DNA of 64,000 bases from Physcia stellaris (taxonomy: Eukaryota; Ascomycota; Lecanoromycetes; Caliciales; Physciaceae), in the NCBI GenBank assembly GCA_018902385.1, contig JABSSW010000046.1, positions 260,258-324,257 on the forward strand, read 5' to 3'. Positions 14,965-41,018 of the stretch are shown piece after piece. The position numbers and the translations under genes were made by a program. A model generated the notes under the pieces. The model had not been told where the DNA came from, searched no databases, and saw nothing but the letters and a program-made list of their open reading frames with translations. Numbering within the stretch: position 1 is the first letter of the stretch; each line of letters begins with the position of its first letter.

Positions 14965-16578
14965 TCAGAGGAAGTCCTGGTTATAACTTATGGCCAAAAA
15001 CTGGCTCAATTGACAAAGCGTGCCTCCACAGTCCACCCCACTTACCCCTTGTTGGACGGCATAATTGAAGATATGACGGAGTGTCCTGGATTCGCCAAGC
15101 GTGCGGACTGCCATGTATACACATGCGGCTGTAATTGCGGGAATAGGTCGATCAGGCACCGCTGCAGCATGGTAGATTTCCGAGTAGAAGGCCTTAGCAA
15201 TGTCCCCAGCTTCTTGGCCGAGCCCCAAGGCACTACAGTGAGCTCCAATGAGACGATAGGCTTCGATAAGATTGCTTTTTGCTTTGACAAATCTCTGTTT
15301 GAGCTCGGTTGTGCTAGACTCGGAAGTATCTTCAGACCGTTGAAGGATCGGATTTGGCTTGTATGAGTTGCGGGCTAAGAGACCGAAAGTCAGTGTAAAT
15401 CAAGACATAACCATACGAGCTACTTGCCCGCTGGGTGTTTTGGGCTCTTCGGACGGCCCAATGCATCATGTCCTGTCTCTATATCTGATAATTTCCATAT
15501 TGCGCTTCCTGGACCTTTCCTCTCAACCAAGGGCTCCTCGACACGTCTAGACTTTGTTGACTCGGAGCTGGATGACGGACGAGGCATACCACAAGGCTGT
15601 TCGAGCCTTTGTTGTGTGCTTTCAGGCGGGCCATTCGTCTTCTCTGTCACATCTTGCGAGTGAAGTGATGGAGCTGGACTTCTAGACGAGGAAGATCTCT
15701 GGCTGTCCTCTATTGTAGGTGATCCCATACGCTCGTAGGACTCTGGTTCAAGCTGCTCTAGCCATGTGACAATGCGTTTCGGTTTTTCCTGAAACATTTT
15801 CAACTGGACTTCCTGCTCGCTGGCGATTTTGAACGTTGGTGTTTTGAACTTTCGTGCAGGTTCCGAGCAAGGCCGTTTGCTCTCTGAGTTTTCGCTCGAA
15901 TCTCCATCCCATTTTCGCTTTTTACCCGATGGGGCGGACTCTGCCGAATGCAATGAAGCACTATGAGCTACGATATTCAGTCAAACCTCATGCGAGTCTG
16001 TTGTAATATGGTAACGTACCGTATCCAGATTTTCCATGGGGCTCTATCGCAAAACTTCGTGCCAATGATGTGTATTGAATATTCCTGGCGTTTAATCGAG
16101 CTCTCTTTTTGCTTAGATCCCAAGCATTCCTTGGGTGATTCTGGTGGACGAAGAGCGGCTTTGTAATTGAAGAGGCTTTGGAGGCCGATCCGCTTATGGC
16201 ATTCTTCTTCTGCTTTCCGTTTTGCAAAGAAAATCCACGGAGCTGCTCTGATGGTCTCCCATGACGCTTGTGCGTTCTTGTGGCAACGGAGAATTTCTGT
16301 ATCCGCGAGGCTGCAATATTTGATCTGTAGCCTTGGCTCTCACGGTCATGACAATATTCATATCTTTGGCTTGTAGTTTCCGTAGATGGGAGGTTTGTAG
16401 GTTTGCATTGCCCATGGGTTATGGATGGTGTCTCAGACGTAGCGGATGATTGGAACCATTGTGGTTGGTTTACTCTCCAACGTGCTTCCAAGTAAGCCAA
16501 CGTCTCTGCCTCCTGTTTAGTGAGTGGAGGGCTCTTTTCTATGGGGTTCCAAACTAGGTCTAAATCTAGTGACTTCAT
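14965..16578 (-). CDS. TFIIB/cyclin-like nuclear protein, module 1
   Basis: Three exons, 16578-16020, 15967-15428 and 15374-14965, give 502 aa; the summed length is a multiple of three. Intron 1 is GT-AG, 52 nt, phase 1. Intron 2 reads best as a GC-AG intron with a perfect GCAAGT donor, 53 nt, phase 1. Exon 1 carries a VATRTHKRH-FSLQNGKQ segment shared with the paralogues, exon 2 opens with a bipartite nuclear signal (KKRKWDG..SKRPCS) followed by TWLEQLEPESYE, and exon 3 ends in a cyclin-like helical repeat like half of TFIIB (about residues 398-495, with LIGAHCSALGL and PAITAACVYMAVR). TFIIB's zinc ribbon and second repeat are missing. The start is the first in-frame ATG. It is divergent from the FHA-kinase gene at 17462. 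The family call is by motif only; the role is inferred to be nuclear. Confidence 0.85.
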
Positions 16579-17461
16579 TTTCGCAGCACTGAAGAGCTAT
16601 CGATCTTCCTAAAGAGCTAGAAAAACCTTGAGAAGTAAGGCCAAAGGTTGTAAATGATTCAGAAGAGACAGAGAGACCCTTTCAGTGACAAGCAAGCATA
16701 TTAGCGTGCCAAGGTTCTTTGATATTTGACAGCTAGCATAGCCCCTCCTCAGTCACAACATTATCTTTCATTCACCATTAGTCTTGGCTATTAGAAAGCG
16801 TTACTTTGTGATAACTTTATTGGATTTTGACACTCATTGTGAAGGGTGATTATTTGTTGATGTTTATCCTTCATCCATGATCTAGCGTGATACGATTCTG
16901 TTCCATGAATTGCCACAAATACTTAATCATTGCACATACCTTTTTATGACACCAAGCTTACTACTCTGAAATGAAGGGATCATTATGCTTTCAGCTCGCT
17001 TCGAGCAGCAGGCCTATCAGACCACATTGTGAGAATTGCATCATTTTATACTAGGCCTTCGGATAGTGTTCAATGAAGTGAATCTTCTAACACAAAGATG
17101 TGACTGATATAATACATAAATAAGGGTCTCTCTTAAGACATAACTCTACTTCTTTATACTTTGTTCAATAACACACAACTGCGACTTGCGAGGGGCACTA
17201 GTGCTTTAGAAGGCTATAAATTTCGCGACATTCTTTCTCTTTGATATTACTCATACCTCTGAAGTTTACAAATGCGTACAAGTCACCTCTACTGACTGTA
17301 CTGACCGAAATTTATTACGAGCTTCTGCATCCATTTTTCTGTTAAGTTCGAACGATAGCCCAAACCTCATCGAACATCCTGGCCACAGGTACCTTCATAT
17401 CAGAGACTGCTCCAATTTCTCGGGTCGAGCGACCTTGCTCCAACTCGAAGTCACAGCCGCC
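16579..17461. promoter_or_regulatory. Shared divergent promoter region, module 1
   Basis: An 883-bp gap between the start codons of the TFIIB-like gene (left, minus) and the FHA-kinase gene (right, plus). No ORF of note. Both genes must be transcribed outward from here, so shared control is likely but not shown. Confidence 0.55.
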
Positions 17462-19336
17462 ATGACCTCTTCCCCGAGATCAATAGTTATGGAGGCATTT
17501 GCAAAATGCAGTTTAGTGGCTGAGGTTATACCATTCAACTTTGAAGCCATTGAATGTTCACTCAGAGTGTGGGAGCAACGGGATAAGCTTCCCAAGTCTA
17601 CGAGAAGTTACATGTATGTTCGAAACACCAGGGAGGATCAGAAGTCCGATCCCCATAATCATCAGCTCAATGCGGCTGATCTGAATTCTATCCATACCCA
17701 GAGAGGAGCTACCGAATACCCTGGCTTTTGTCTAACCACTGATAACTTTGAGCTTGGAAAGAAAACTCTAGGCTGGACACTTGGACCGTGGATGGAGGAT
17801 GGTAGTGGAAGCGGTGTTAGCCTCCTCACAAATTATCCTGGAGAACACGTGGAGGGTGTTCAAACCCCACAGGCCTTGATTCACATCCACAGCCGATCCA
17901 GCATGGTAGTGGTTCGAGCTACAAATCAGGAACCGATATATATTCAAGAAAACGGCGAGTGGGTATACGTTGGTCGCTACCAAGATCGGGTTCTTTCCCG
18001 CAAAAACTATATTCGTGTTGGAGACAAAGTGTACAAGATTGTAATTCCAAACTATGGGTTTAAGCAATATCAAGCTTATCGCCGTGGTCTTGTTGGGGCG
18101 TTCAAGATGGCCGGTTTTGCGGCCATACATAGCCGCCTTCACAGTTTGCCAAGGAAAGAGGCATTTACGATGATAGGGCCATACATTCGCCACGGTACGA
18201 TCCACAAGAACGGTGAGACATGGATCAGAGCGGGAGTAGATGTCGATTCCGGGGAGGCGGTGGCAATCAAGAGAATTGGGTTCAAACGATTCACGTTGGA
18301 TCTAGCCATGGAGCGTGAAGTGGAGGCCTTGTTTGCTTTCCCAGTAAGTAGCTGACAGCCCCTTGATTTTAAACGGTAGAGTACGAGTACTGACAGATAC
18401 ATGGATTAGAATAACAACTACGTCATTCAGGCCAAGGAAGTCCGTTGCGAGAACGGCCACTACCTAGATTCAAAACACCTTGAGGCGCAGACTAAGACGG
18501 TGCAGACTTTCTGCGAGTGTCAGGAAGTTGATTTTTACTCTGTCACGGAGCTAGCTCACGGAGATATCACATCCCAGGAGTGGCGTGAAGCTAGCATTCT
18601 GGTATGTGTGAAAATCCTGTCCGACTCCCTGAAGGGCTTAATGATAATGCACGACAAAGACTTTACGCATGGGAGGATTACCAGAAGGAATATTCTTATC
18701 ACCAAAGTGAAACCGACCGAAGTGCGGCTCTCAAATCTCAGGAATACTCTGAAAGCTGATAACTTCTCGGAGCTGGAACTGGAATCGATCTACTTGCTAC
18801 CTCCAGAGGCTTCTCCTGGACACTATACTAAAGAATGTGACATTTACAGCCTAGCTATGGTTTTCTGTTCCATCGCCTTTCCTAAGTCCTACAAGGAACA
18901 GGTCAATTACTCTCGACCACAGACATCAGCTTTCAAAGAGAAGATGGCTACACTTTTGAAAGAGATGGCACGTCAGACACCAAATTTGTGTCCTTTGGCG
19001 AATGCAGTGATCCGGATGCTATCAGCCAACGCAGACGAGCGTCCAACAGCAGCCTTTGTACTCAGTCAGATTCCAGTCAAAATCAGCCAAATGAATCATT
19101 GGGAAGCTAAGTCTCTAGCAGACGAGGAACCCACTCGAAAGAAAGTGAAACTGGGCAATTTGAGCGGTAGCGGACCGCTCAAGTATCAATCAAGTGCCGG
19201 GTCTGTGACATCTGACACCAAGAACTGGGACGATGGCGTATCCGGATTAGACTCTTCGGCAGTCCCTGCTCTGTCCGCAACGCCGATTTCCGATTTCGAT
19301 TATGGATCCGAGGGGGGCTGGTCTAAGGTGAAGTGA
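17462..19336 (+). CDS. FHA-like plus pseudokinase protein, module 1
   Basis: Two exons, 17462-18343 and 18410-19336, joined by a 66-nt phase-0 GTAAGT-TTAG intron, give 602 aa. Residues about 100-197 look like an FHA fold (a GWTLG strand, a SLLTNYPGEHV loop, a terminal VGDKVYKIV). A linker with FTMIGPYIRHGT leads into a kinase-like domain from about residue 255. The ATP-binding Lys is kept (VAIK, Lys270), but the HRD position reads HGR, the catalytic-loop Lys is gone, DFG reads SNL and APE reads PPE; the later CDIYSLA Asp is kept. I infer a pseudokinase. The C-terminal part has TRKKVKL, a likely nuclear signal. An upstream non-ATG frame (17435) was not used. The partner gene is the TFIIB-like gene on the other strand. 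Confidence 0.88.
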
Positions 19337-20343
19337 TGTGAGCAGTCAATGATACACTCACTGTGACAAGTCCCAACTGTCTTTGGCACAATGGATAAAA
19401 AGGCTCCCAAGTCGGAGAATCGCGGGTCTGTCAGGGTCGTCCGGTTGTTTGTGAGCATGCTCGTGGCGCGGCGCGATACTTTCCTTGGGCTTCATAATTT
19501 CTGCATGTAGGTCTCCTGGGGGTGGGTAGTGGGTAGTTTAGTAAAGGGCATCTGCCGAGACATTCGATGCGGGCGCTTAAATATGGGGTTTCCGCTGGTA
19601 GAGAAAACCTTCGTCTTAGATCGAGCACCTGATTAACCGTTCTGGGTGCTCGCGTGACAGCCCATTTTAGTTCAAGCAGTCCACAAGCTTCTTCACTTCC
19701 AAAATAACGCCAATGCATGTTATTGTAGTCATTCTTGTAAGTCCAAAGACATGAGGCATCGAGGAGAATCAGTATAGTTTGCAGGGATTGAGAAGGAACG
19801 TTCACCGTGAACTTGCACAAGGAAAGGTGGCTCGCGCACCGCTGGACATCGGGTTCAAAGAACTTTATTGAGTTTGAGAGATCGAAATGAAGACTCTACG
19901 AAGCGACGGAGTGAAACTGTAACGTAAGGAAAGGAGCATAGAAGGTCTGGGCCTGTGAATTGACAGAGGCCAGAGAAAATGACGTTGTTCTCAGTCCTCA
20001 CGGACATACCCGAGACGTCAATGTGGGCACTTGCATCATGTTGTGTAAGCGTTAAGCTCGAAATCTAGTGACGATCTAGACTCTGATGCAAGTCTATTGC
20101 CTAGAATCTGTATTGGAAGATAAAGCATGTCATACAGCTTCGGCCGATTTGCAAGCTGAAAATGCCACTCCTCTCCCATCCGTCCACCTTTCTGATAAGC
20201 ATCGTCTTGGACAACTTGATCTCCTTCACAGTAACTAGTTCATCATCTCCTGAATGAAATGGCCATATCCGTGTGTAAGATTCTGCGACTGTGATCATCC
20301 TCGAAGTAATAAGATATCAAGTGTAGAATGATATCCAGCGTGC
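19337..20343. other. Intergenic stretch between module 1 and the F-box gene
   Basis: I see no supported gene. A minus ORF at 19431-19820 (129 codons) has no recognisable features. A short tRNA-like stretch at about 19385-19440 is discussed under rejected items. Confidence 0.4.
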
Positions 20344-21729
20344 TCATAACTCCCATTGTCTAACCCTCTGCACCTTTGTGACTTCAACCTGAACTTGAAA
20401 TTTCCAGATGAGAAATTCGAATTGTACACCGAATTTTAGAAAGCGATGAACACTCTCCAACGTTTTAGACTGTGAACTTTTGGTTTTCTCCCGAATCATG
20501 TGACCCTCAACTGTGATGTGCTTCAGATTAGAGTTCCGTCGTTTTAATGCCTCGACCAAAGATGTACAGTCCATGCACATTGTGGCGAAACTTTCAGCGT
20601 CATCACCACACTTGACGCGAAGCTCTTCTATCGAACTTGGTAGCACGGTCTCACTTTTATCTTCAGAACGAATCAAGCCTTCCGGATAGAGCTCCAAGTA
20701 CCGCAGGTTTTTGAACATTGAGATATCGCCGAGGAAATTTGCTACCTTCCGACTGTCGTAGGAGGGGATATCGAATGTGAGTGACTGCAGACTATCCTTG
20801 CAAAACATTTGAAGCGAAACGCAAAGCCAGTAGCAGTCAATCCGCGTCGTACATGCGTCTGGATGATTCCGATTGATTTTGTACCAGTCATGTACAGGTA
20901 TTTCATTGATTGTGAATGTTTTCAAATTTGGGAGTCCTTGGAGAAACCTGTGAATAAGTTTGTCTCCGACCACACATGAGTTGAATTGCAAGTGTTCCAC
21001 ATTCGAGGGCCTTGCTAGCAACTGGAGTGCGAATTCGTCGGTACAATTATCGTTGATGTGATTGACAGATAATCTCCGCAATGAAGGGATTAGAGTAGCG
21101 AATATTTTTGCCAAACCGATGCCGAGAACCCATTCCTGGCCCTCTCGGTTTGTGTGGAGCTGCAACACTCTCAGATGCGGAAGGAAGCTTGGGAAAAGCG
21201 GTGCTGAGGGGTGACTCTGATTCTCCTCAATTAGCTCTAGCGCTTCAAGCATCATTGATTCATCCTCTGGTACTCCAGCGACTCGAAGCACACGCAGCTC
21301 AGAAAGTTCCCACAACAAAAGGGGAAAGACGCCCTCTTCCGTCCCCAACTTAGAAATTGCACTGGACAACGAAGTAGGGTCATTGTGTAGAGCCTGACGC
21401 ATTTCATTTGGGGAGTTTGTGCATAGGCGGACTCTACCGTGATTGTCCGGCGATATCTCGTTGTGCCAATCCTCGATTGTGAGCTTCCGAATGTAGTAGT
21501 GAAGGTGTTGCTTGGATATCACATCAAGTAGCAAGCGTGCGATGGAGCCATGGGATTCGTTTCTTCCACAGATGGCGTGTCCAAAATCCCTCTTGAGGCT
21601 CTGATGCCGATCAATCAAAGGCTGCAGAATACGTCGTATGTGCCTGCTGGTGGAGGTGAATGGATCGATGGCTTCTGGTGCGAGAAATCCTCCAATGTTT
21701 TGGATGAGCTCGGGCGGGAGCTTCTCCAT
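20344..21729 (-). CDS. F-box protein with leucine-rich repeat-like region
   Basis: A single-exon gene of 462 aa starting at the ATG at 21729; the frame runs open further upstream but only to a non-ATG codon. The first residues, MEKLPPELIQNIGGFL with a following STSRHIRR segment, are an F-box, the part that binds Skp1 in SCF ubiquitin ligases. The rest has recurring leucine-rich stretches (LRVLQLH, LRRLSVNH, VEHLQFNS, LKTFTINE, LRYLELYP, IEELRVK), consistent with an LRR substrate-binding surface. The target is unknown. It lies between modules 1 and 2 and has normal composition. The call is firm for the F-box, weaker for the repeat count. Confidence 0.85.
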   Translation of the reverse strand: MEKLPPELIQNIGGFLAPEAIDPFTSTSRHIRRILQPLIDRHQSLKRDFGHAICGRNESHGSIARLLLDVISKQHLHYYIRKLTIEDWHNEISPDNHGRVRLCTNSPNEMRQALHNDPTSLSSAISKLGTEEGVFPLLLWELSELRVLRVAGVPEDESMMLEALELIEENQSHPSAPLFPSFLPHLRVLQLHTNREGQEWVLGIGLAKIFATLIPSLRRLSVNHINDNCTDEFALQLLARPSNVEHLQFNSCVVGDKLIHRFLQGLPNLKTFTINEIPVHDWYKINRNHPDACTTRIDCYWLCVSLQMFCKDSLQSLTFDIPSYDSRKVANFLGDISMFKNLRYLELYPEGLIRSEDKSETVLPSSIEELRVKCGDDAESFATMCMDCTSLVEALKRRNSNLKHITVEGHMIREKTKSSQSKTLESVHRFLKFGVQFEFLIWKFQVQVEVTKVQRVRQWEL

Positions 21730-22825
21730 TATCAAGGTCTGGCGCGTTGCGTGCAAGAACAAAGAAGGACGGAGAAAATCTGCAGAGTCTATGGATTTGA
21801 CCTCGTGACGTGCAGCATGCTCAATAGCTCGCGCAACAAATGGGTTTCCACAAATTGAAGTGAAGATGAGTGTTCTAGTTCCCAAGGAGAGGAGGCGGAA
21901 AGTTCTGCCGAGTTCGGGCAGGTTTGGCCGAGATCACTGTAGCTCTAGCTTAACCCTAATTTGGCGTCAGAGGGTTGGCCTTGGCAAGCACCTCGGAGAC
22001 TCGAAGTTTTCCAGCTTCACGATGCAGAAGAAGTGCATTAGACTGGAGACTGTCGTACAGCGAGGGAGTGAGAGGAGGCCACGGGGGTAATGGTGCCTGA
22101 AGTGGCCTGCTCGAATCGAGAAAAACGAAACACCAAGGGTTTAATTAGTTAGCCAAGGCCCTCCTAAGAGGTGATTGGCTCGGTTTGTTTTAGCCACATA
22201 ACGGACCCTAAGGACGGTTTCGAGTGCTGAAGGTAATAATAATGAATCAATCAAATCCAGCTCCACAAGAGCATAAGGCAGCTGAAAGGGACTACGGAAT
22301 CACAGTCGATAAGAGATCAATCAGGCTCGCTCAAAAGGCAAGTATAGACTAGTTTTTTACGTCTAATGTACGCACAAAGGAACCTACCTGCGAAGTATTT
22401 TCGCTCCTGAATTGCTGTCATTATCCAACGTGATCCTGAGGCACCATTCTAAAGATACACGAGTCTTGAGACAACAGCTTGGAAGCGGTAGAAGCCCTTT
22501 GCAAGCTCTTTGGGCCTGCAACCGCTATGCCCAGTCGCATTTCAAAGAAGCCAGCGCGTCAAGTTCACAGTCTAAGTATTTTTGAGCAAAGCTACCCAAT
22601 GTCAGTTCTAGCTGACGTAAGTAGAGTAACAGGTCGCGGCCGATGTGTAGAGTCACCAATCAATGTCCGCAAAGGCGCTAGCCGCCCCTGAGACTATCGC
22701 TTGTCTGCAACTTTATGCGATAACATCTTTGCCGTCAAGCGAGACGGTAGGGAGATATAGATATGTACTGATACCCCCCAAAATTGCATTCATACTTTAC
22801 GTTTCTGGAGAAGACATCGGCCGTC
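21730..22825. other. Intergenic stretch left of the secreted-protein gene
   Basis: No firm gene. A short open frame from 22243 (about 36 codons) resembles nothing I can name with confidence, and the other open frames here are shadows. Confidence 0.35.
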
Positions 22826-23596
22826 ATGCCATATTTCACGACCCTATCTGCTGCGCTGGCCTGCCATTTCCTGATCATTGAATCAGCTGTGGCAACTCCG
22901 GCCGGAAGTAGCTCCAACCCCATGCTACAGCAAGGTTGGCGACCCAGCGCAGGAAGTGATGCATCAGGCAATGCCGAGGAGTTGACTATGTACGCGGTGC
23001 CCCCAAATTTCCGCGCCGATGCCGTAGCGTATTTCATGTCAAGTGAACAAGGGCCGATCATCGAAGTCAATAATACGTGAGTCTCCATCGACCCGGATCT
23101 CATACTCGAGCCGTCTAAGCATCTCGTAAGGTTTTCGACTGGGGTGCCTTCTATTAATGTGCCACTCCAAGTTGGTCCTCTCGGCGAAAACAACTACGCA
23201 TACTACCTGGAGATACAGAACTCGATGCCACATCCTAGGACGACCTTCTCCAAATTCGACTTTTCAAAGAACCTCTTCCAATCCGCGTTCGATTTATCAA
23301 CTCAGATTCCGGGATCGAGCCGTGGACCAAAGACGCCATATCCGGGTCGCCGCTTCGTGGGGGCGAAGTTTCCGTCTACTCTACCTGGTAGACTCGACAT
23401 GTACCTGGACGACAATAGCATTGGCTATGAGATGTGGTATCGAGATCTTAATTTTATTTTGAAGTATATGTTTGATGCCCATATTGGCAACCCTCAAGCA
23501 GAAGCGCACGGTTATTTTGATTTACAGGTCTGGTGTTTCTTGAATGGAAGTAAGGATCCGCATAAGACGGTGCACGGGTACTTCAGGCCAGCGTGA
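22826..23596 (+). CDS. Small secreted protein, unknown function
   Basis: Two exons, 22826-23076 and 23131-23596, joined by a 54-nt phase-2 GTGAGT-TAAG intron, give 238 aa. The ATG at 22826 starts a signal peptide (hydrophobic LSAALACHFLIIESAVA, likely cut after AVA). The mature part is about 210 residues with a single Cys, rich in Tyr, Phe and Pro (FDFSKNLFQSAFDL, DMYLDDNSIGYEMWYRDL, GYFDLQVWCFLNG). I recognise no family. Its size, secretion and position between repeated modules near an AT-rich island would fit an effector-type or lineage-specific protein, but the lack of Cys pairs is atypical for small effectors. The splice model is supported by frame continuity. Confidence 0.78.
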
Positions 23597-24389: not shown

Positions 24390-25993
24390 TCAGTGACACG
24401 CAACAGCACAGGGCCGTTCCCTTTGATGTATGCTGTTGGAAGGCATGGGTACGAATCTTTCGCATATAAGAGTCATGGTCGCTGCACACTCGCTTCTCGA
24501 TGCATGTGTGAGAGCAAAGATATCGAGCCATTTCTGCCATTTAATCTTCTCATCGCGAGCGATAGCAATGCATCCCGCTATCATAGTATGTATTGACCGG
24601 TCTTCGAACTCTTTGTCGAAAAAGATCTGATGCAATAAAAGGTTGGCATAATTGATGACATTCCTCTTGAGACCAAGCTCTCGGCAATAAGCGCCAGTAG
24701 CTTCGTAAGCACACTCCAGGTTTTTCACTTCGATTTTGTGTACCTCTCGTGGCTTCTTTGTCTTCTCGTTGCGGCCGGCAGTGCTCTGGTCAGCTGGTTT
24801 ACTGCCGGACAGTAAAGCTGGATAGATTAGGGAAATGATTGGTAGGCTTTGATGCAGGATGACTACTCACATTGGTTTCCCAGTGGCCGACCTTGTAATT
24901 CATCTTGTTTCGCATTCCGGTCTGACATCGTAGGCAAAAGACTTGTGGCACTCTGACCAAAAGCTTTCATGTCTACCGAGCTACTTGGTAACTTTGCTGG
25001 TACCATTGGCACGTGTGGAGTGGTTTTCGACTTAGTCATAGATCCCTCGCAGCATGACCCAGGGGCTTTGGTCTCTTGCTTGACGTTGGGCGGAAGGTTT
25101 CCAGCGGATAGATCATTAGGTGGGAGCTGTAGAGGCTCATAGTCCGGTCCTTGGTGATTCAGCCATCCTTCGATACGTGAGGTCATGTTGTGGTATGCCG
25201 GGTCATTGGACGTTGGATCTACTTCAGACTCTGCCTCTGTATATGAAGCTTCGGATCGTGATTCATCTCGAGGGCGTTTTGCTTCTGGCTCTTGATCATC
25301 ATCCTCGGCAAGATCCCTCTTTCGTTTTGTTTGACTACCTAACCCGGGAGTTAAGATCGCTTTTTGCTCCCCCGAACCTAAGATGATTAAAAAAGGAAAA
25401 AAGCGAGGTGTTAGAAGATTACCTGTTGACTGTGAAGTTGGCGACGGAGATGCTGCTATCATCGCTTGTCTGCCTGACCGATCTAACTCCAAATATGGTT
25501 CCGCCGACCGGGCTTTGGACCGAGTAACTCGCATATTTAATTTATGACTTCTACGATTGTCTCTTGATGACTTGGAGAGTCTCTCCGACGATGCCCTGCC
25601 TGAATGTTTCATGTGTGTTGACGCTTTCGATTTAGCCGCTCCAGCAAGTGCCACAAAACTATCAGCTGGTTGCCGAGAGCCAAGAGCTTCATTCGCATCC
25701 GGCATCACATCACTTAGATTAACTCTCTCTCCATGCTCGCTAGGACTTGGAGATGGGATCCCGATCTCTGTGTTTTTACTATTAGTTTCAGTATGTGAAG
25801 GCGGACGAGGCCGAGCTTTGAGCCCCCCGTTCAGGATATTCGGACGTGAGCCAAAATGCTCCCAAACCCAATCATCAGTAGCTTTCAATTCGGCCGGACT
25901 TAATAGACCGCGACAATAGGCTGCAAACTCAGCATGATCCATTTCATAAGGAAGATCCATGTACAAGGCAGATCGAACCACTGGAAAAGCCAT
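24390..25993 (-). CDS. TFIIB/cyclin-like nuclear protein, module 2
   Basis: Three exons, 25993-25423, 25377-24871 and 24817-24390, give 501 aa with total length a multiple of three. Both introns are phase 1: 45 nt (GTAATC-TTAG, readable through) and 53 nt (GTGAGT-CCAG). Exon 1 ends with the family segment RVTRSK..YLELDRSGRQA. Exon 2 opens at a bipartite nuclear signal (TKRKRD..AKRPRD) and contains GWLNHQGPDYE. Exon 3 carries the cyclin-like repeat (ATGAYCRELGLKRNVINYA..MIAGCIAIARDE), like one half of TFIIB. The start is the ATG at 25993; codons before it in frame include no ATG. Motif order and intron sites are the same as in the module 1 and 3 genes. Divergent from the gene at 26763. Inferred nuclear DNA- or transcription-linked role. 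Confidence 0.87.
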
Positions 25994-26762
25994 AGTGTAC
26001 AACGTCGAGAAGTTGAGGATAGTGCACCATAAAAAGCTGATAGGTATGGTTGTTGAAAAGGATTGAAGAACTTTTACAAGAGGTCGAGGGTTTCTCGTGT
26101 AGGCCGGGAGTCTCTTGGTGGATATGAAATATTGTAATAGTTTTTCACCGATATGCCAGTTTATTGGGTTCTTTTGAACCGAACTAGGTCATAGAAGTGG
26201 CATATACTTCACTAAAATCATCACCCTCATAGTCAACCACCAAATCATCATAGCAATGCCAATATGTGAGAACTTCCGTGTCCGAGAGTTAAGACACGTG
26301 CTAAGATGAACGGAGTGAATTTTTGTGGAAGACACTAGAACGTGCTAAAATTAGAACTGCTCTCAGAGTGTTTGCTAGTCCGTGATCTGGTGCTAAGTGA
26401 TGCTAAATTCTATTAGACACCGATAACCCGAATTGGGCTGAGAATGGAAGATATGTCATTTGCATGTTATATTCATATGCTTTGTGTCAAGAACGGGAGC
26501 GCGATAGCACCACATTAAGTCATTGAAAATATATGAATGCTGAACGAAAAGAAAACAACAACACTACAGAGCAAGACACACCTCTAGAACACTGGCTCTT
26601 GCTTAGCCGGAAATTCTCTTTTGGGAATGGGACTTTGACATATATATATAGATTCGAGTCGGGTTCTCAATGTAATTTCTCATTCAGTCAGATTCAAATT
26701 CGTTCTGCACATCTTTGGTATCTCTTGCTTTTCTCTACCTCCAATCATTTGGGTTCGCTACA
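25994..26762. promoter_or_regulatory. Shared divergent promoter region, module 2, with GTGCTAA cluster
   Basis: A 769-bp gap between start codons. GTGCTAA occurs at 26298, 26342 and 26390, and TGCTAA at 26401, a spacing of about 44-48 bp. A TATATATATA run at 26641-26650 lies about 113 bp before the FHA-kinase ATG and is a good TATA box. Confidence 0.6.
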
Positions 26763-28891
26763 ATGGCTTTCAACTCTTTCCCAGCAGCGTCGCGGGAACC
26801 ATTGCCCCCTTTTGCTGTCATAGTACCCCACGGTACCCACGCAAAGGCGGCCACTGCCGCCATGGCAACGCGTCTATTTGGCATGGGAGGACCGTCCATA
26901 AACAACCAGAAGTCTTTTCACGCCCGAAAAGCTTCGTCCTCTCGACCAAGAAAGGGGTATGACAGCGACTCTGATTCCGAGTCAGGCGAGCAGGAGTGGG
27001 AATGTCGCTATCACCTGGACTTAGCCGACTTACGTATCGACTCCGATGATATAGGCTTCCGAATTGGTACAGGATTCTCTGGGCATTCACATGATGATCG
27101 AGGAGTGGATATTCTGACAAGCTATCCCGGAGAACAGTCTTACAACGTTAGTGGCATCCACTGTGAGCTGTTGTTGAGCAGCGCGGGTGTCTGGCAAATC
27201 AAGTCCACCAGCGAAACGAGTACAACAAAGGTCGGACACCAATACGACTTCGTCATTCTTGGAAAAGGAGAGACATATTTGCCACGCTTTAAGACCAATC
27301 GGCTAAAAATTGGGAAATGGGAAGCTGAAATAATCTTCAATACCTACAGCTCCGAAGAATATGCTATCTATATTGAACGACTTCACGGTATCCTGCAATG
27401 GCACGGGAGATTGATACCTGATCGTCGAATCTGGGCTCTGCCGACTTATCGTGATTTTATGGCTATAGGACCAGCGATTGTGCAAGGAAGCGTACAGGGA
27501 TTAGCTAACGGACTTGTCCGTGTAGGAGTTCATCTCTATACGGGTCAAGCTCTGTCGGTCACCTCTATCTTCATAAAGTCGTTGAAAAGCTGGAGTATCA
27601 TCAACCCCCATCTCATCGCTCTGCTGTCTTTCAAAGTATGTGTCATAAACCCATGTTCAAGTCTAGGAACTAATTTGGTGATCAGGGAGCACAAGGGCTG
27701 GTGCAGGCGATCGAAATCCGCTGTGATCATGGCCATATGGTGAATCATGAACTTCTGGCCGAACTACAAGACGAGCAGGAACATGTGCTGCAGCCGTTAT
27801 GCAACAAACACTCTGACATGGTTCATATTATCTCTAACCTTCCATCGTCAAGCTTTCGAGGGGTCAATTGGGAACGACAAAGCCTACCCACTAAGTTAAC
27901 TCGATTACGGGAACTTTTCTTGGGAGTCAAAACATTGCACGAGGAAGAGATCACTCATGGCAACATATCAGAGGATACCGTGGTCATGATCTCTGAAAGC
28001 CCCCCTCGAGCTGCCGTTGGTGGCCTAGGTGAATTACCGGACATCGTAACGACTACCGATGCAGAAGGAATGAAGCGCGCCACTCGAAAACACACCAAGT
28101 CTAACGATATCCAGGACCTGGCTAGACTTGCACTCAAGATCCTTTTACCCACTGGAGACGAGGAGACCACCAATTCGAGTCTCATAGAAAAAGAACTTTG
28201 GCATAAACAAACCACAAGCTGTCTGGAGGTAATGAAGTTTGAAGGGAGAGTGCAAGCTCGAGTAGTGCTCCTACTGAAAGACATGCTCTCCGACAATACT
28301 ACACTACGACCCACGGCAGCCGTTGCCTTGGCAGCTCTGCCGGAGTATGACTGGGTATTGAACGAGTACAAAGAGCTCTCTGAATATGTCAGTCTCTCGA
28401 AGGATAATCAGAAGCGGATTCGAGAAGTTGAAGAAATTGGTGCGGTTGATGGTGGTACTGAAGAGGATCCATCTTTATATCCGCCGGTGCAGAAAAAAGT
28501 GAAAAATGTCGTCTCGGAGGTAATATCATCATCGCCTACGGATGTTGATTTCACCGCCAATGCCAATGCCAACAACTGTGAGCGTCATGTGTCCGCTGAA
28601 ACGTCTACTGGCGAAGAAGACACTACTCATGACGGGGAAGCGACAGAGGATACCGGGAACTCCTCCCAATCGTCGAACAATGACTTTGGTGACGAAGAAG
28701 ACTTCTCGAGGGAGTTCGATCGGGTTAACGAAGAAATGAGAATAACCTCACAAACCCAGTCAGCTATCACTCCGAGCTCGACACAAGGTCAGGAAGGAGA
28801 GGTCTTACCTGCTGCACCTTCAGGACTTCAAGCTCAAGATCAGGAGGTCAATCAACCACCCGAGGAATCCGAGGAATCCGAAGAAGAATAA
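26763..28891 (+). CDS. FHA-like plus strongly degenerate kinase protein, module 2
   Basis: Two exons, 26763-27635 and 27686-28891, joined by a 50-nt phase-0 GTATGT-TCAG intron, give 692 aa. The start is the first ATG after the TATA run. An N-terminal basic/Ser-rich stretch is followed by an FHA-like region (about 98-193: FRIGTGF, DILTSYPGEQ, GIHCELLL). The linker FMAIGPAIVQGS matches the paralogues. In the kinase-like part nearly all key residues are missing: VAIK reads LSVT, HRD reads HGN, DFG reads GGL, and APE is not recognisable. Only the fold outline and the QAIEIRCDHGH segment after the intron remain. A long acidic/Ser tail ends PEESEESEEE. This is the longest and most degenerate of the three, surely not an active kinase if the alignment is right. 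QKKVKNV may be a nuclear signal. Confidence 0.88.
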
Positions 28892-30056: not shown

Positions 30057-30350
30057 CTTCTCGGTGTAGTGGATCTTGACTTGCTTTAGCTGGGACGGTT
30101 TGCTAGGGCTTTAGGGACGTCTCCCAATTTCTCGGAGGCTTACCTAAGCTTACGATGGCATAACCGATACTAGGTCATTGGATGCCTATTTAGAGTCGTT
30201 CGCGGCGGAAAAGTCCCGCGGAAAAGAGCTGACTTGACCATTTTCATCGACCTTGATACAAATAGCTTAGTGGTCCAAAGCGCTGTACCTCCTCCAACCT
30301 AACTGACGCCGAATCAGCGTGGTTGAGAGTTTGTCAAGACTAAGGAGAGC

Positions 30351-32673: not shown

Positions 32674-35089
32674 ATGATGCTACATGCCGTCCAGAGCCAT
32701 GCCAAGAGCACTGGTAGGATTATTGCTAGAGTCTTCGGATTAAGTCTGCCTCTCGAAGCAGTGAAGTCACTCCAATATCTCACAGGTCGTGGACTCCACG
32801 AGCCACTCAAGATTGCCATTAATCGAAGCCGTTGGATAGCGTTTGCCCGGAGTCTAATCCACATCATTCCCGTTGGGTTCGCTTTGTTCGAGATAATCTT
32901 GAATTGGAACAGCTTCTACGTTGGTGTTGACAAATACAACCAGGCCTCATATCAATTAGTTGCTAAGATTCACGAGCTCATGATTCAAGCATCGTTAGGA
33001 GCCATTCTTTTCTCCTATATACGGCATGAAATCGTTATTGGCGAAGGTCTACCTTTCGGTGCTTTGTTTTCAGGATTACAGCTTAATCAAATCAGCTATC
33101 TGTGGTCTTTAGAATATTGGGGATCCATCCGATCTCATCATCTGACAATTTGGCGGAAAATCCGACTTTCAATTGTGATCGCGCTGTGTATCATTTTGGG
33201 GACTGTGTGTGGTCCATCGAGCGCTGTCCTTCTTATACCTAGATCGCAGTATTGGCCCGCTGGTAGCACCCACATCTGGTTGAACACAACGCGTGAAAAT
33301 CTGTGGCCTGAAAAGTAAGTCCTTTTTTTGTTGGATTCAATGATACACTACGGCTACTACTGAGCTAGGGTCGATGCATCTATGGTCCCGGAGATGTGTC
33401 AAGGAGCGCTGAGAAGTTCGTCTCCATCTGGTAATGAGTGTCCTTGGAGCGAATGGACTTCAATCAGAGAAGTTCTGACCATTCTTCGGGATGGTATCCC
33501 GGAACCATACCTCTCGACATGGCGTGTGGTCTACTTGCCTGGTTATGTGGACGTTAGTGGAAAGAGTGCTATCCGAGAGTTCTACAGTGGACAATCCTCA
33601 ACTTGGATGGCAGAGAACGAAATCATAAGTTTTACCTCAACACAACAGGCCGCAGTCGCTGATGCACTGGTGTCAGCAGCCTCTCTGTGGTGCCTTGGTT
33701 TGACGAATGTTACAGCTCAATCGGGACATGGAAATCCTCTTTCTGATCAATCTGACTCGGCTCATACAATTGAGAATGACTACATGCAGCCGTCCGTTGA
33801 CTCTTTATGCAAGCCTGATGTTATCGACGGCATGGATGATGATCGGCCACTTATATTTCCATTGTTGTTGAGCCAAAACAATGTATCGTACAGTGATACC
33901 ACCATGGATAATTCCTTCCATCGCAACGCCAGCGCCAGGTCAATACCATCCATCACCAAACCCGGGATGCCTCGATCAGAAGTCCTTAATACTCCAGGAT
34001 CCATGTCGGAATTCCGCCTTCGTTGGATCGACCTCTCAGAAGATCGTTTCCAAGGCAGCTCCATTGGTGCAGCCATACTGCTTCCACGGAGTATTGAAGA
34101 TCACTCTCAGCTGATTCTGACTTGTCATATAGCTGCTGGCTGGAGTAACAGTTCCATTTGGACTACACGGAGTATGGGCTCGCCCTCTAGTGGTCGCGTA
34201 AGCAGCATGATTGAGGAGAACGAAAAAGCCCCTAGACCCACAAACATTGATAGCAAGCACACATACGTCCCTACTAAGCAACAAGATGAATTCCTTGATG
34301 GGGGCGATGGTACTCGCGTGGATACTAACATCACAGAGAGCTGGGCCGACCTTCTGAATCCGCGACTCCTGGATACGAACAGCACCGTGATTCATGAATT
34401 AATGCAACTGCAAGTCTTTCAAGGATACGCACATTTTGCAAGCTATATACTTGGTGCACTGGTAACAAACGGTCTTGCAAGGACCGGCTTCTCATCACAA
34501 TTACAGGGGGATCTCAAGACGGTATCGATGTCGGATGGCAGTACGCAGATTGATGGAAATTACTGGCTCTCCGGAAAAGGGGACGTTTTTCAGGTTAATT
34601 CCAGTGAAGCTAAAAATTGGACTAAACTCCAGATGACATCAACTCTGCAAGGGAATGCGTACAACACAGCAGGAAGTCCAGCAAAAATTGCGATTTGTAT
34701 TATCGTGATATATTGCGTCGTAGCATTTAGTCACATGTTCTATGCAGGCATATTTGGTATGTTGGCAGACGCTTTTCAGGGTCAACTAATCCAGACGCTG
34801 ACGAACAAACAGGAATCAGCTCGACGGCTTGGGACTCCATCGCGGAGGTCGTTGCCTTGGCTATCAACTCTGCCTCTACCGCTTGCCTGCGTAATACGTG
34901 TGCCGGTATAAGCGAGCTTCATATTTTCACACTCCTGTTCCAATCCTTGTTAGCAAGGATGACGAGGGAGACGGTGAACACTTGGAGCTAGTATTTGGAG
35001 ATGTGGCTATTGGAACGACGGAGAAAAGCCTCATTCAGCCCAACCGTGCATATGGAACTATGGCTTCTACGAGGGCTAAACGACTCTGA
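32674..35089 (+). CDS. Large multi-pass membrane protein, uncharacterised fungal family, possible late frame break
   Basis: Exons are 32674-33314, 33369-34756 and from 34813 on, with introns of 54 nt (phase 2) and 56 nt (phase 1). The N-terminal part has three membrane segments (RSLIHIIPVGFALFEIIL, LMIQASLGAILFSY, IVIALCIILGTVCGPSS). A long extracellular-type middle with many N-x-S/T sites follows, then another segment (IAICIIVIYCVVAFSHMF) and the segment GISSTAWDSIAEVVALAINS with RNTCAGISELHIF. I recall this layout and C-terminal signature from unnamed proteins of many Pezizomycotina. After ELHIF the protein-like text (VSKDDEGDGEHLELVFGD) moves to another frame ending at 35089. This means a frameshift or error; otherwise the protein stops at about 34990. 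About 740-770 aa. Function unknown. Confidence 0.75.
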
Positions 35090-36875
35090 ATCTCAGTTGA
35101 GTCCCAAAAGCTGGACGAATATCTCGTTGACAGAAATGGCTATGTCGCATTATGGATAGCGCTTTGAACCACGATCGTCTCGGATAAGAATCGGAATTCC
35201 TTCTTTGGGATTGCAATGGTGTCTTTTCTCTTCAGACCATCCAAAAGTGCAGCCTCTGCCTTCAGCTTCAGGTCAGGTAGCTCGATTGTTGACGAACTCT
35301 GATGCACTGATATTAACTAATAACACATTGGCTGATATCATCACAAGGTATTAAAAGACTATGTATAATCTTGAGGCAACGCAGTGACAATTCACTGTAA
35401 TGCCACACCTGGCTTTGTCTCGTCTCTTAGGAAATTTGACGCCTTCCCCATTATCTGCTCCAATCCAAAACCAAAGTCGTCGATCACCGCCCCTCAAATC
35501 GACATCTAAATCAATGAACTCCAGTCCTCAGTTGGTTCAACGAAGTCTTGTTCGGTTTATTCCCCTCAGAAACTCCAGCGAACGCATCAAAGAGTTCTTC
35601 ATGAGGTCAAAAATTTCTCGAGCTTTGTCTCCATATTCAGCTTATGAATGATACAAAGACGACCTCAAGAATTCAGAAGATCTCACAATAGTCTACTACT
35701 GCATCAAAAGATGCCAGACTCGCGATTCGGAGGCGTACAGGCGGTGCTGAAACTATCCAAGGATCGTCCATATTATGCATGCTACAGGGTAATTAACCTG
35801 GATCGCGCGATCCTCCGTCAGTGCTTGAAATTACACTCTTCTTCTCGATAAATTTATGAGCGAAGCTACTACCTTGCTTTGCGGTATATACTGCCGACTA
35901 GTAGCCATGGAGCTTCGAAAATCTAAACTGGCGTTAGCTTCAAGAGGATTCTATCATGGTATAGAACGAAGAGGATTTGACAGCTTCATAACCGACTAGG
36001 TAGTGCTGGTCGGCTCCTGGGACTGCTGAGTCATGCTCTATCTCAATGCCTGAATAGTTCAGGGTACTCTTCATCGCGCGATAACAATTTCATGAATTAG
36101 ATCAGTTGGGGACATTCACCAAGTTGCCGGCCCTATTTCGATTAGCTTTCACGAGATTCATATGAATGACCTCATCTTAGGAAATGGCTGCACCAGCAGA
36201 AAGAATGTGTTGAATTGTACCAATTTCTAGGAGATTAAGCAGTGGGAATGAAAGTAGTTGCAAAGGGTTTGAAAACAGAAAGAGTGACTGAGAAGGTCGT
36301 GACTTGAACGAGGAGTTGATGCTGCATAATCTGCAAAAATCGATTAGAAAAACTCCATTGGGTGATGGAGGGTTGCTCTGAAGATCGTTCGAAGAATTAT
36401 GTATTCGGCAAACAGCATTCATGATAATTGCAATGCGAGCAAGCTACATACGGGCTAGTTGCTAGGATACCGTCAACACGTCGTGGTACAGCAACCCACG
36501 TCTTATCGGCCTCTCGTCAGAAAACCCCATTTTCATCTCTCGGTACTTCGAGTTCACCTCAAGCTTTCTCTCTCCATGCTCCGAACATACTCCAAAGGGA
36601 CAGCAACAAGAATAATGGCAACATAACAGTCCTACTTTCTTCAGCGCACATCAACAATCTCGGTGATCAGTCGCCGTAGCTGTAAAGCTGGTCACTGGGC
36701 ATGGTAGAGTGTAGAGATGAGCTATCTATCGTCAGAGAGTCACACAAAACGCACGTCTATTGGTGTATTGTACATAACTGCACTACTTTAGTTACAGACC
36801 ATAAGGTTAACAGCGGCCATAGACAGATTCCTCAAGCAAGCAGTAAGTCGAGCGTCTGTTTATGACCCCCTAGTA
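35090..36875. other. 1.8-kb stretch without a supported gene
   Basis: Several short open frames occur (35400-35651 and 35648-35851, plus strand) and one frame near 35650 reads protein-like for about 35 codons, but none has a full model. It may hold a decayed gene. The last 200 bases are the 3' flank of the module 3 FHA-kinase gene. Confidence 0.35.
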
Positions 36876-38731
36876 CTATTCCTCCTCCGATGATTCGGGC
36901 GTATCCTCTCGGACAGAGGCGGTAGCTACCGCCGTAGAAATGTCCACAGCTGCTTCAGAGAATCGCTTCTCCAGAAATTTGACCTTTGGACTCCATCTCC
37001 ATAGAGCCCTGGTCGGATTCCACAGCGGTAAACCTCTTAGTACCTGTGCTGCAGTGGGCCGGTGCTTCGGATCACGTGAAATCATCAAGGTGACTACCTT
37101 TGCGATCCGATCTTGAATATTGCCAAGGCGTCCAAAGTCTTCCAAACAGCGAACCATATGAGCATTCCATGCCGCGCCCTGACGGCCCTCCCGGTCGATG
37201 TATCGGTCATAGTCATCTGGGAGTAGCATGGCGCACATGACTAAGCCGCTGTTCCAGATGTCGATTTTGTTTGTGTGACGGCCGGATACCACTTCAGGTG
37301 CGTGAAGGGCGGGAGTACCAAAGTCAGTCGTGTGGAAATGAAGTCCGTCAAACACTGAGCTAAACCCACATAAGGCTGCCTTTGGTGGGTTCAAAGACAT
37401 CATTAAGATATTGCTCTGTTTGATATCGCGATGCATGCATGGTTTAGCGTGCGTTCTTAACACGCCCTTAGAGAAACTTCGGATCATCTGCATCTTAAAT
37501 TCAAGAGTTGCCTCCTTCCAGTCGTGACAGGAAAAATCTTTCTTTGCCAAGGGGTACAGAATGTAGATCGTAACCTCTTGGTGTTTGCAGAAGAACACGT
37601 TTCTACGCGGGTCTCGCCGGTACTGTTCAGCAGTGACACAGCATCCGATCCCACATCGTACTTCAAATGCCTGTAACGATCCGCCTTGACCCTGGAATAG
37701 CTGTCAGTCAATTATCCCAGAGCCTCGTACGAAGTATTGCAATTGTTGAAGAGAAAGAACTGCCATTGGGTCGGCATCAGAAGATGCCAATTGACTCATG
37801 CTTCATGTGCTCTGAGCTAAGGTATTTTCACGTTTTGATATAACGAGTATATCTGATATAGAGAGCCACTTACGTGAAATGCGAAAGAAGCGTGGATCAA
37901 ATATGTCGCCTGCCGCCAAGAAAACTCTGCTCCGACATCGATTATCTTTATAGCCATAGGATCTCCCGTGATGTGATGGATTCCAGCCTTGACATAGCGC
38001 CTTGAGCCCCCAAGGGTGCTGGGTAGGATAACAGCCGGACCGATACGAGTAAAAGGTTCTTTGCCAGGAAAGCTATGTAGTCGAGGGTCAGGTAGTTGTA
38101 ATCTGTTGATACGATAGCATTCGTCTCTGTAGTCGAGAAAGTCCACCAAGGCCTGACCGCGACGCTCGGGGACTTCAAGTTTGAGACGCAGCGCTCCGAA
38201 GCTGAGATCGTTCTCTGGGAACAAGATCATGCGCGATTGTCCCTGGTACAGAGGCACTTTTCTACCGTCAATGGTGTAGATTACTGGATTAATGGCGTGG
38301 GTTCCCGCTATCATCAGAGCTCCAGATACAGGATGGTAGTAGATGATGCCATGACGAGGCGCGACACCGTTGGTGTTTCTCCCTTCGAACCCAAGACATA
38401 GGGCAGTCCCTCGATCAGCTGCTACATTAGACCCTAAGCCGATAGTATATCCAAGTTTGGATCCACCGAACCGAAGATTCTTAAAATCGAGCAAAAGCTT
38501 AGCGTAGGTAAACTCCTCATCCAGGTCGCCAGCGTCAGCGGCGAAAGTATAACTGTCGAATGGGTCGAAAACGGCAGGACGAATGAACTGCTTTTGCGGT
38601 TCACCAAGTTGGCCTTGATTGTCATAGATGTGTCGCATCAACGCGACGGTTTTATCGTGGCTTAGGTTAGGACCCATGTAAGCAATAACCGTTGGAGGTA
38701 TAGCCTCCGACTCTGATCCGGAATCGGCCAT
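36876..38731 (-). CDS. FHA-like plus kinase protein, module 3 (most complete kinase)
   Basis: Two exons, 38731-37874 and 37691-36876, give 557 aa. The intron is phase 0 at the same place as in both paralogues, but 182 nt long instead of 50-66. The choice of acceptor is supported by LQAFEVRC directly after it, matching IQAKEVRC and VQAIEIRC. FHA-like region about 88-190 (KLGYTIGLGS, ALCLGFEGRNT, a His at GVAPRHGII). Linker FTRIGPAVI. The kinase-like domain keeps Lys262 (MAIK), an intact catalytic loop HRDIKQSN (373-380), HAPEV and KIDIWNSG, but the DFG Asp is replaced (CGF). It could be weakly active or regulatory. The C-terminus ends PESSEEE, like the module 2 tail. Divergent from the TFIIB-like gene at 39395; the module is inverted relative to modules 1 and 2. 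Confidence 0.86.
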
Positions 38732-39394
38732 GAGCAGAACAGCAAGTGATTTCCCTTATATAACAAGGCGGGCGAGAGATGCTTAGAATCGTGAAGAGGT
38801 AACTATTCGACCAGAATGTGAGAAGGAAGGGTAGAGGTTCCGCTCAGAGATTTATATAGTATAGACTTTCGTAAACAGAACAGTAACACGGAGCTAGTCG
38901 TCAGGAGTTCGGTTGGTGTCAATGCACCTCAAAAACGATGCCATAGTAACACGATCGCAATAGACACAGCAACACGCAGATCGTGTAGAAGTAAGTCCAA
39001 TCGACTAGCAAACTCCTTGAAGTCCATCTGATGTGAAGGCGAAAGACACACTGGTAGAGACCATGGTAGGGCAGATCCATCGTGGCTGATTTGTTTGGTA
39101 CTGTCGAGGCTTATTCACCCGTGGTGTTAGAGTTGGAAGATGGTGAAAGGTCGTTGCCCGATGCCAAACCTGGAGCTAAGACTCGAAGAAGCTTAGCTCG
39201 CTCACAAGTATCAATACGACTAATATATTTTCCTCTTTGCCCCTTTCCTACATGTATTCTCCGATACACGCCCGTCTTTACAAGGCATTTATCCTACTGT
39301 GCAGACTATCTACATTCCATCATACTCGGACTGTAATTTGTCTTTTGTACGAAAGCTATTGACAAAGCCTTTTCAGAAGCAGATTCTCACAAGT
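38732..39394. promoter_or_regulatory. Shared divergent promoter region, module 3
   Basis: A 663-bp gap between start codons. TATATAAA on the minus strand at about 38851-38858 lies about 120 bp before the FHA-kinase ATG. TAATATATTT at 39221 lies about 170 bp before the TFIIB-like ATG. An in-frame open stretch before 39395 (from 39299) was not taken as coding. Confidence 0.55.
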
Positions 39395-41018
39395 ATGAAT
39401 GAACTCCAGATCATATCCGCCGAGTCGAGACGTCTTGGTCTCAGTGACGAAGAACGTCGTCAACGGATCTTCAATTACTTCCAAAGCCAAGGTCCTTTCA
39501 TAATTCATCCATCTCTGCCGTCACACAGCTCCTCTGTCCGGTCTCATACCCCTTACGGACTTCGGTCCCCTAGCCCTAGTGACCACGGGCAGCCCGTAGA
39601 TCATCAACAAAGCCTTAGGACCCAGCGGAATGTTCCACCTACACAGGACTCTGGATCTATAAACAACCTCGAGTCTGGAGATGCAGGAGCTAATCAGCCC
39701 ACTCGACAAGCTTCGCCTCCCTCTTCAGCCGGGAAGATGCTTCCTAGTAGCACAGAGAAGCAACGATCGAAGCTTGTCAGAGCTCCAGGCCGAGTCACAC
39801 GGTCTAAAGTCAATGTGTCGACTCATTTTATCCAGCTTGATTCTTCAGGCAAGAAAGCAGTAGAAATGGCGAGCCCAAATGCAGTGATTTCGAGCTCGTG
39901 GATTGAACCAACAGAATCTCTAGATACTTGTATTTTAGGTAAGTTTCGCGCACTCAATAGGCATAAGATCCAATTGAGCGAATATTATTGGCACTAACCT
40001 AATCATTTGGCTCAATCAGCACAAAAAAACACTCTCAAACGTAAGCGAAATATCGACGATGACGCGGCAGCCCAGACAAAACGCACTCGTTGTCAGACTC
40101 CTTCGACAATCTCATGCATCGGATCAGATTGCCCTCATTCGAACCATTTAAATACTGAGTCTTCCGATGGCGCGCAATCACATCTTGTAACCTGGCTCGC
40201 TGATCAAGAGCAAGAGGCTTTGAGCCGCTTGACACAGGAATTGCGGATTACGCTCTCGAGTCATGTCGCTGCGTAGAGCAGTCAATCGCTATTGCAACCA
40301 CAGAGGCTCCTCACTCTACATGGGCAGAGCAGACGCCAGAGCATATGAACGAACATGACCAAAATTGTGACGAAACGGAGTCAGGAATCTCATCATCGTG
40401 GACCGATGTTGATTTAACAAATGAAGCTGCATTTGTCCAAAATAAGCGAGCTCAAGCTACGACAGATACATCAATCCAACAGTATTCAAAGGCAGCTTCT
40501 AGAAAGACTCGTAAGTAATATATAATCTTGAAAGTTAAAATGTACTGATCAAGATAGGCTCACGCACAGACACATTGTCAAGAAGCACTAGATCATCAGG
40601 TGTGCATAGAAATAAAAAGATAACAAAATCTTTGGAGAACAAAATCTCCCTTCTATCGGCTTACCGAGAAATTGACGCCTACTGCGAGAAAATTAACCTC
40701 AAAATCGACGTTGCCAACAAAACGAGGTTAATTTACCACCAAATCCATGGAGAAGCATACTTCAAGGATCAGCCTCTTGACGCTCTGGTGGCTAGTTGTA
40801 CTCTCATTGCCGCCGAAACGCTCAATGTCTCTAAGCAACAACTCCAGAAAATTGTTTCGCTATTCGATGGTCCGCCAATGTGTGTGTATGTTTTCAAAGA
40901 GGAAATTGAGTATAGATACCCTCATATCAAAGAGACTGGTATGGTCACCGGGAAGGCATCATCTCACATTGAAAGCAAAACTTCTGGCCTTAATGGCGTC
41001 AAGAATTACTCTTATTGA
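39395..41018 (+). CDS. TFIIB/cyclin-like nuclear protein, module 3, frame interrupted
   Basis: Exons are 39395-39938, 40020-40510 and 40558-41018, with introns of 81 nt (GTAAGT-TCAG, phase 1) and 47 nt (GTAAGT-ATAG, phase 1), as in the paralogues. Exon 1 has RVTRSK..IQLDSSGKKA, exon 2 a bipartite nuclear signal (LKRKRN..TKRTR) and VTWLADQEQ, exon 3 the TFIIB-type cyclin repeat (EIDAYCEKINLKIDVANKT..LVASCTLIAAE). Summed length is one base short of a multiple of three. The frame of the nuclear-signal part ends at 40276, while the frame that splices correctly into exon 3 is open from about 40204. This is either a real frameshift or a base error; no intron fits without losing the conserved WL segment. 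Coded length would be close to the 501-502 aa of the paralogues. Confidence 0.75.

Follow-up and report, generated by a model that had tools for sequence, protein, structure and literature searches.

Protein kinases such as Rad53/Cds1/Chk2, Dun1 and Mek1 are FHA kinases, with the FHA domain located N-terminal to the kinase domain. The HD1/HD2 mating loci of basidiomycetes consist of divergent pairs of genes from different families, present in several linked units. A locus comparable in part with each has been identified through in silico analysis of the ascomycete Physcia stellaris, in a stretch of 64,000 nucleotides (the window) on contig JABSSW010000046.1 (C46, positions 260258-324257; the genome comprises 44 Mb in 147 contigs). 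The window contains three modules (M1-M3), each formed from a kinase-like gene (k) and a partner gene (c) arranged head to head, and four further copies (P1-P4, partners marked p) are located to the left on the same contig. Repeated copying of a two-gene unit, with at least one inversion, best explains this arrangement. With a probability of roughly 0.4, the unit is a co-duplicated two-gene module encoding a nuclear complex of a (pseudo)kinase and its partner.

As in Rad53/Cds1/Chk2, Dun1 and Mek1, the FHA-like domain of this family is situated N-terminal to the kinase domain. In contrast to these enzymes, the genes are clustered with divergent partners, the presumed residues of the FHA pocket are mostly lost, and the window copies are pseudokinase-like. 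The genome's own frame combining FHA and kinase domains (C11:265 kb, the kinase recognized by eye) is not among the matches listed for M1k, M3k and P3k. The locus shares with HD1/HD2 a divergent pair of two families in several linked units; it differs in that no homeodomain was detected in the scanned sequences, and in that the fungus is an ascomycete whose MAT alpha-box gene lies on another contig. As far as titles and the opening parts of abstracts in the open-access literature indicate, no such pair has been described, and its members may be annotated under generic names. We regard the system as a combination of familiar folds whose pairing and layout are unreported.

The initial annotation had described three head-to-head pairs in the window, with 0.66-0.88 kb between start codons and the third pair inverted. 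Both statements agree with the gene models: open frames are present in all three modules, the ATG-to-ATG distances are 884 bp (M1), 770 bp (M2) and 664 bp (M3), and M3 has its two genes on the strands opposite to those in M1 and M2. The features are as follows.

14965-19336: module M1, partner (-) and kinase (+), head to head, open frames
17462..19336, plus strand: M1k; an FHA-like and a kinase-like domain between an N-terminal region and a basic tail; intron 18344-18409; PF00069 E 5.5e-8
17720..18100 (approximate, hand-placed), plus strand: FHA-like domain of M1k; family-level profile-profile comparison, no Pfam call
14965..16578, minus strand: M1c; basic clusters and C-terminal TFIIB/cyclin repeat; introns at about 15968-16019 and 15375-15427 (GC-AG)
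15064..15279, minus strand: TFIIB/cyclin repeat of M1c; PF00382 E 2.8e-8, predicted five-helix fold, Foldseek matches to TFIIB/cyclin
16579..17461, no strand: M1 intergenic region between the divergent starts, from the start positions
24390-28891: module M2, partner (-) and kinase (+), head to head, open frames
26763..28891, plus strand: M2k; FHA-like and kinase-like; intron 27636-27685; no Pfam hit, found by the M1k genome search
24390..25993, minus strand: M2c; SPSPSEH motif, TRSK motif, basic clusters and C-terminal cyclin repeat; intron 24818-24870
24468..24692, minus strand: TFIIB/cyclin repeat of M2c; PF00382 E 0.0032, under the curated cut-off
25994..26762, no strand: M2 intergenic region between the divergent starts, from the start positions
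36876-41018: module M3, kinase (-) and partner (+), head to head, open frames
36876..38731, minus strand: M3k; FHA-like and kinase-like; intron at about 37692-37873, hand-placed, with a GTAAGT donor and an acceptor ambiguous by 9 nt
39395..41018, plus strand: M3c; SPSPSDH motif, TRSK motif, basic clusters and C-terminal cyclin repeat; three introns, 39939-40019, 40187-40281 (doubtful) and about 40511-40557
40647..40856, plus strand: TFIIB/cyclin repeat of M3c; PF00382 E 4.5e-5
38732..39394, no strand: M3 intergenic region between the divergent starts, from the start positions

The kinase-like domain, said in the initial annotation to be always present in one gene of the pair, was found by Pfam in two of the three modules, namely in M1k and in the second exon of M3k (PF00069, 5.8e-18 for the latter). 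PF00069 is also matched by C-lobe pieces of P1-P4. Pfam gives no kinase match for M2k, which is assigned to the same family because the M1k protein matches both of its exons in a genome-wide search (E 9.4e-10 and 1.3e-8). A profile of the seven copies matches many kinases in the PDB, with a best E of 2.6e-21, and on these sequence comparisons all seven are assigned to the eukaryotic protein kinase superfamily, M2k by homology alone. The copies are all located on C46, within about 128 kb, at approximately 171, 201, 215, 230, 278, 287 and 298 kb. Genome searches with M1k, M3k and P3k returned 13, 39 and 27 matches, respectively; 12, 14 and 14 of them are on C46, where each search recovers one and the same set of seven copies. 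The remaining 1, 25 and 13 matches, on other contigs, concern residues of the kinase region, with no FHA part among the matches listed; the best of them (C11, 4.1e-8, in the M3k search) ranks there ahead of the C46 copy at 171 kb (8.4e-7). The searches score the best candidates only, so that these counts are lower bounds, and some stretches read N.

The seven kinases share 18-36% identity. In the tree, M1-M3 are separated from P1-P4 with support of 99/99 and have long branches; P1 and P2 group together at 100/99, and the grouping of P3 with P4 is less sure (81/85). The same division is seen in the catalytic residues. Lysine, HRD-Asp, Asn and DFG-Asp are all retained in the four left copies, and the DFG-Asp is lost in all three window copies: M1k has R for the HRD-Asp and N for the DFG-Asp, in M2k all four residues are replaced, and M3k retains HRD but has G for the DFG-Asp. 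By these substitutions the window kinases look like pseudokinases. The Asp of DxWxxG and the Arg of subdomain XI are retained in all seven copies. An RCxxGH...C pattern, possibly a metal-binding loop, follows the N-lobe, between the kinase lobes, in M1k, M2k, P3k and P4k (the first residue varies in P4k); in M3k it is partial, with C in place of H, and P1k and P2k lack it. In collections not meant for fungi, the second M3k exon gave no pattern match among viral contigs, and P3k gave 31 pattern matches among prokaryotic genome contigs, none of them confirmed.

Loss of catalysis by drift would also be seen if the window copies were pseudogenes, that is, decaying duplicates. This explanation is very improbable, though it accounts for the disappearance of both the catalytic and the presumed phospho-threonine contact residues from M1-M3, and though the frame of M3c is open only with the poor-consensus intron 40187-40281 (GTAACC donor) and is otherwise broken, so that M3c may contain a frame break. 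Against it stand the long open exons, the structural residues kept in all seven kinases, and the kinase gene model of two long exons around one intron, which has a matching place in M1, M2, M3, P1 and P2 (the introns of P3 and P4 were placed by analogy). The probability of finding no stop ranges from 9e-10 to 2e-6 for six kinase exons (13 exons tested in all); for the other seven, all from partner genes and with the two middle M3c exons left out, it lies between 4e-9 and 2e-3. This test considers composition only and was applied to frames picked for being open; the sevenfold recurrence of the kinase family on a single contig is stronger evidence that the frames are not due to chance. The introns of the module genes are short, with fungal-type splice and branch sites, which, together with the mating-type alpha-box gene on C4, points to an ascomycete.

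A divergent open frame adjoins the kinase in seven of seven copies, as judged for P1-P4 from the 4.5 kb inspected beside each. The starts are separated by 1006 bp in P2, 767 bp in P3 and 536 bp in P4; the kinase start of P1 is uncertain, and the P4 partner was read for 119 residues, beyond which the sequence is N. Related partners are recognized in five units, perhaps six. The suggestion that the pair duplicates as a unit is supported by seven kinase copies on one contig, each with a divergent frame, and by the motifs shared among M2c, M3c, P2p and P3p. The same layout may be read as nothing more than the lineage-specific expansion of two adjoining genes, one FHA-kinase-like and the other its head-to-head neighbour, in which tandem duplication and a shared promoter keep the pair together and the products have no direct partnership. 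Clustering follows from tandem duplication, and in compact genomes a promoter can serve both of two divergent neighbours. This reading is nevertheless somewhat unlikely, given that adjacency and divergence are retained in all seven copies despite the low kinase identity and the inversion of one group, and that other genes of the window, such as an amidohydrolase gene (PF04909), do not recur alongside every window module; the surroundings of P1-P4 were not searched for them.

The partners of the window modules all match PF00382, M2c below the curated cut-off. The structure of the partner box was modelled for M1c and consists of five helices, with a mean predicted local distance difference test score (pLDDT) of 66 and blocks of 66-87 over residues 31-130. 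Foldseek placed TFIIB-containing PDB entries first, followed by Brf2 and, from rank 28, by cyclin K/T; the best E is 9.5e-4, the sole match at or below 0.001 among 345. M1c is accordingly predicted to have the cyclin/TFIIB fold, in the form of a five-helix cyclin box. As in TFIIB and Brf1, the partners possess a TFIIB-type cyclin repeat (Pfam, Foldseek), and a genome search with the M1c box retrieves a C5 gene (1.0e-7), followed by M3c (1.6e-6) and M2c (0.0345). Each partner, however, contains one repeat instead of two, the modelled partners lack the CxxC or CxxH pairs of a zinc ribbon, and the N-terminal region is long, with basic clusters. The single repeat and the missing zinc ribbon pattern indicate that the partners are not TFIIB. 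Two-repeat genes at C2 and C5, which we name TFIIB- and Brf1-like, match PF00382 far better than the partners do. With cyclin K/T and CDK9/12/13 the modules share the cyclin-box fold and a kinase-like protein encoded next door. They differ in the single box and in the adjoining kinase, which is FHA-linked and has lost its DFG-Asp. A CDK-partner cyclin was likewise considered and rejected, as there is a single box instead of two.

The relation between left and window partners is seen in two motifs. The patterns SP.[PA]S[DE]H and TRSK...[FY].[EQ]L[DN]..G, written after inspection of the sequences that they match, were run over 2333 stop-free pieces of the examined C46 DNA and pick out M2c, M3c, P2p and P3p and nothing else; both are absent from 40 loci outside C46 (277,924 six-frame residues). 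A profile of the TRSK motif built from M2c and M3c only, run over the 2333 C46 frames, retrieves P2p (8e-5) and P3p (0.0022), with the next frame at 0.38. The likeness of P1p to P2p is weak (1.8e-5 in a seven-sequence comparison), and M1c is grouped with the window partners by its cyclin box. The bipartite nuclear signal formerly ascribed to the partners is represented by basic clusters resembling a nuclear localization signal (NLS) in three of three window partners.

Two kinase groups thus emerge: the left one has intact motifs and no detected adjoining cyclin box, and the window one has lost the DFG-Asp and adjoins a cyclin/TFIIB repeat. The statement that a TFIIB-type repeat is always present in the partner holds for M1c-M3c, by PF00382 and, for M1c, by the modelled fold. 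A cyclin profile detected no such repeat next to the other kinases in the examined C46 DNA, although the P4 partner is unread and a box split by an intron could be missed. A single-repeat TFIIB-like match to PF00382 is located on C12 (locus L007, 4714-5568, minus strand), together with a second, divergent frame (7852-8754, plus strand) in which a single TFIIB-like repeat is recognized by eye. No kinase of this family was found in the 10 kb around these genes, the only C12 match listed being a kinase region at 303 kb; cyclin-box genes therefore exist without the kinase.

A mechanism consistent with these data can be proposed. A divergent module spanning an intergenic region of 0.5-1.0 kb would have undergone successive duplications of the whole unit, confined to some 128 kb. 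Its first product would be an FHA-like and kinase-like protein, its second a long partner, rich in serine and charged residues and bearing basic, NLS-like clusters, and the two would assemble into a nuclear complex. The kinases of the left group probably act on their partners or through them. Those of the window group may have turned into non-catalytic scaffolds, for which the cyclin box of the partner would give a docking surface, in the manner of transcription-type cyclins and TFIIB. The likeliest output would be control of transcription or of nuclear behaviour.

Several results weigh against this proposal. The nuclear kinase-partner complex is a prediction from sequence and layout. Genome searches with the first M2c exon retrieved only M3c besides itself, and P2p retrieved only itself, so that the left-right homology of the partners consists of short motifs. 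The box of M1c is closer to the C5 gene than to those of M3c and M2c, and the three cyclin boxes therefore need not share one recent origin. The division of the DFG-Asp between four left and three window copies has a nominal p of 0.029, which is not independent evidence, as the split may be a single evolutionary event. No convincing common promoter element was found in the seven intergenic regions (that of P1 being bounded by the uncertain kinase start), where the excess of shared words is slight: 53 7-mers occur in at least four of the seven regions, where 60 shuffles gave 37.4 on average and never more than 51; for 8-mers the number is eight, against 1.35 on average and 8 at most, and there is none at 9 or 10. 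As regards the FHA-like region, Pfam makes no FHA call in any of the seven copies, and a PDB profile search gives ribosomal S13 (E 0.59) and the CHFR FHA domain (0.63 and 0.68), none of them significant. An AlphaFold model of the FHA-containing M3k exon, from a three-row alignment, reached a mean pLDDT of 31.9 and was not used.

The FHA-like domain reported for the kinase gene is backed by one profile comparison, while Pfam, the PDB search and the structure model did not establish it. Ten FHA matches were found in the genome, none of them on C46. Alignment of the seven copies to these ten FHA regions by hhalign gave a score of 25.4; the highest of 200 column shuffles was 17.8, and the reversed profile scored 9.7. 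The SxxH motif is in register, the probability is 17%, and the aligned columns are 48-130 only. The region N-terminal to the kinase is likely, but not proven, to be an FHA domain. As the alignment is restricted to these columns, the Arg of the GR motif was assigned by eye. The presumed Arg is R in P1 and P2 and K in P3 and P4, and is replaced by P, T and L in M1-M3, respectively; the presumed contact Ser of SxxH is present in one of the seven copies, M2. Phospho-recognition is doubtful, since the presumed phospho-threonine contacts are mostly lost. The idea in the initial annotation that the FHA-kinase protein recognizes or regulates its partner is not supported, as far as phosphorylation is concerned, for the window copies, in which catalytic residues and, where assignable, phospho-threonine-binding residues have been lost.

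The several linked, very divergent head-to-head copies, all at one place, would also suit a self/non-self recognition or killer-type locus, which they resemble in layout. In that case the two products of each unit would be matched to one another, and combinations across units or alleles would be harmful or active, as in HD1/HD2 or in fungal incompatibility pairs. The het-B system of allorecognition likewise employs linked genes belonging to different families (PMC10890737). Unlike het-B, the scanned sequences contain no HET domain, and neither NLR, HeLo nor homeodomain was found by Pfam in the 30 sequences scanned, which do not cover every frame in the region. The mating-type alpha-box gene is moreover situated on C4. 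A recognition locus is an unlikely explanation. A mating-type locus is not supported, the alpha-box gene being at C4:738.5 kb and the cluster on C46. More specifically, and by analogy with HD1/HD2, a previously undescribed nuclear recognition system of ascomycetes might be built from an array of matched FHA-(pseudo)kinase/partner units, the partners cyclin-like in part, with pairing specificities so diverged that only cognates fit; such an array might constitute an identity or compatibility code, a speculative and distinctly improbable idea.

Should the paired proteins of the proposed two-gene module cooperate, the seven divergent cognate pairs would be a natural set for studying the evolution of two-protein specificity. 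They would also show how a kinase becomes a scaffold, and whether the loss of catalysis accompanies the gain of a cyclin box. A polymorphic cluster would represent a new kind of fungal recognition locus.

Among the other genes of the window, a long minus-strand frame (20344-21933) is F-box/LRR-like by eye, with only a sub-threshold Pfam match (LRR_4, E 0.0038). The gene island is flanked by AT-rich blocks at window positions 1-13000 and 44000-58000, in which CC and GG dinucleotides are nearly gone. The first block contains 1 CC and 5 GG (226 and 221 expected), the second 8 and 7 (281 and 272 expected). CT/AG is depleted and CG enriched about threefold in the blocks; in the island (14000-42000), dinucleotide frequencies are normal. 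The pattern has the look of a C-to-T process directed at CpC and CpT and not at CpA or CpG. Fungal C-to-T mutation signatures include CpA, CpT and CpG (PMC4352252); CpC-to-TpC is one possible form, and some CpC depletion, with CpA dominant, is reported for repeats of S. nodorum (PMC2621366). Three matches to the cytosine methyltransferase family PF00145 are present in the genome. Starship-borne cargo was considered as an origin of the cluster: the captain (DUF3435, PF11917) has no match in the genome, where control profiles were likewise without a match. Two AT-rich frames, one in each flank (9682-10544 and 53637-54332), are closely alike, and by eye they look like degraded helicase-type transposon open reading frames.

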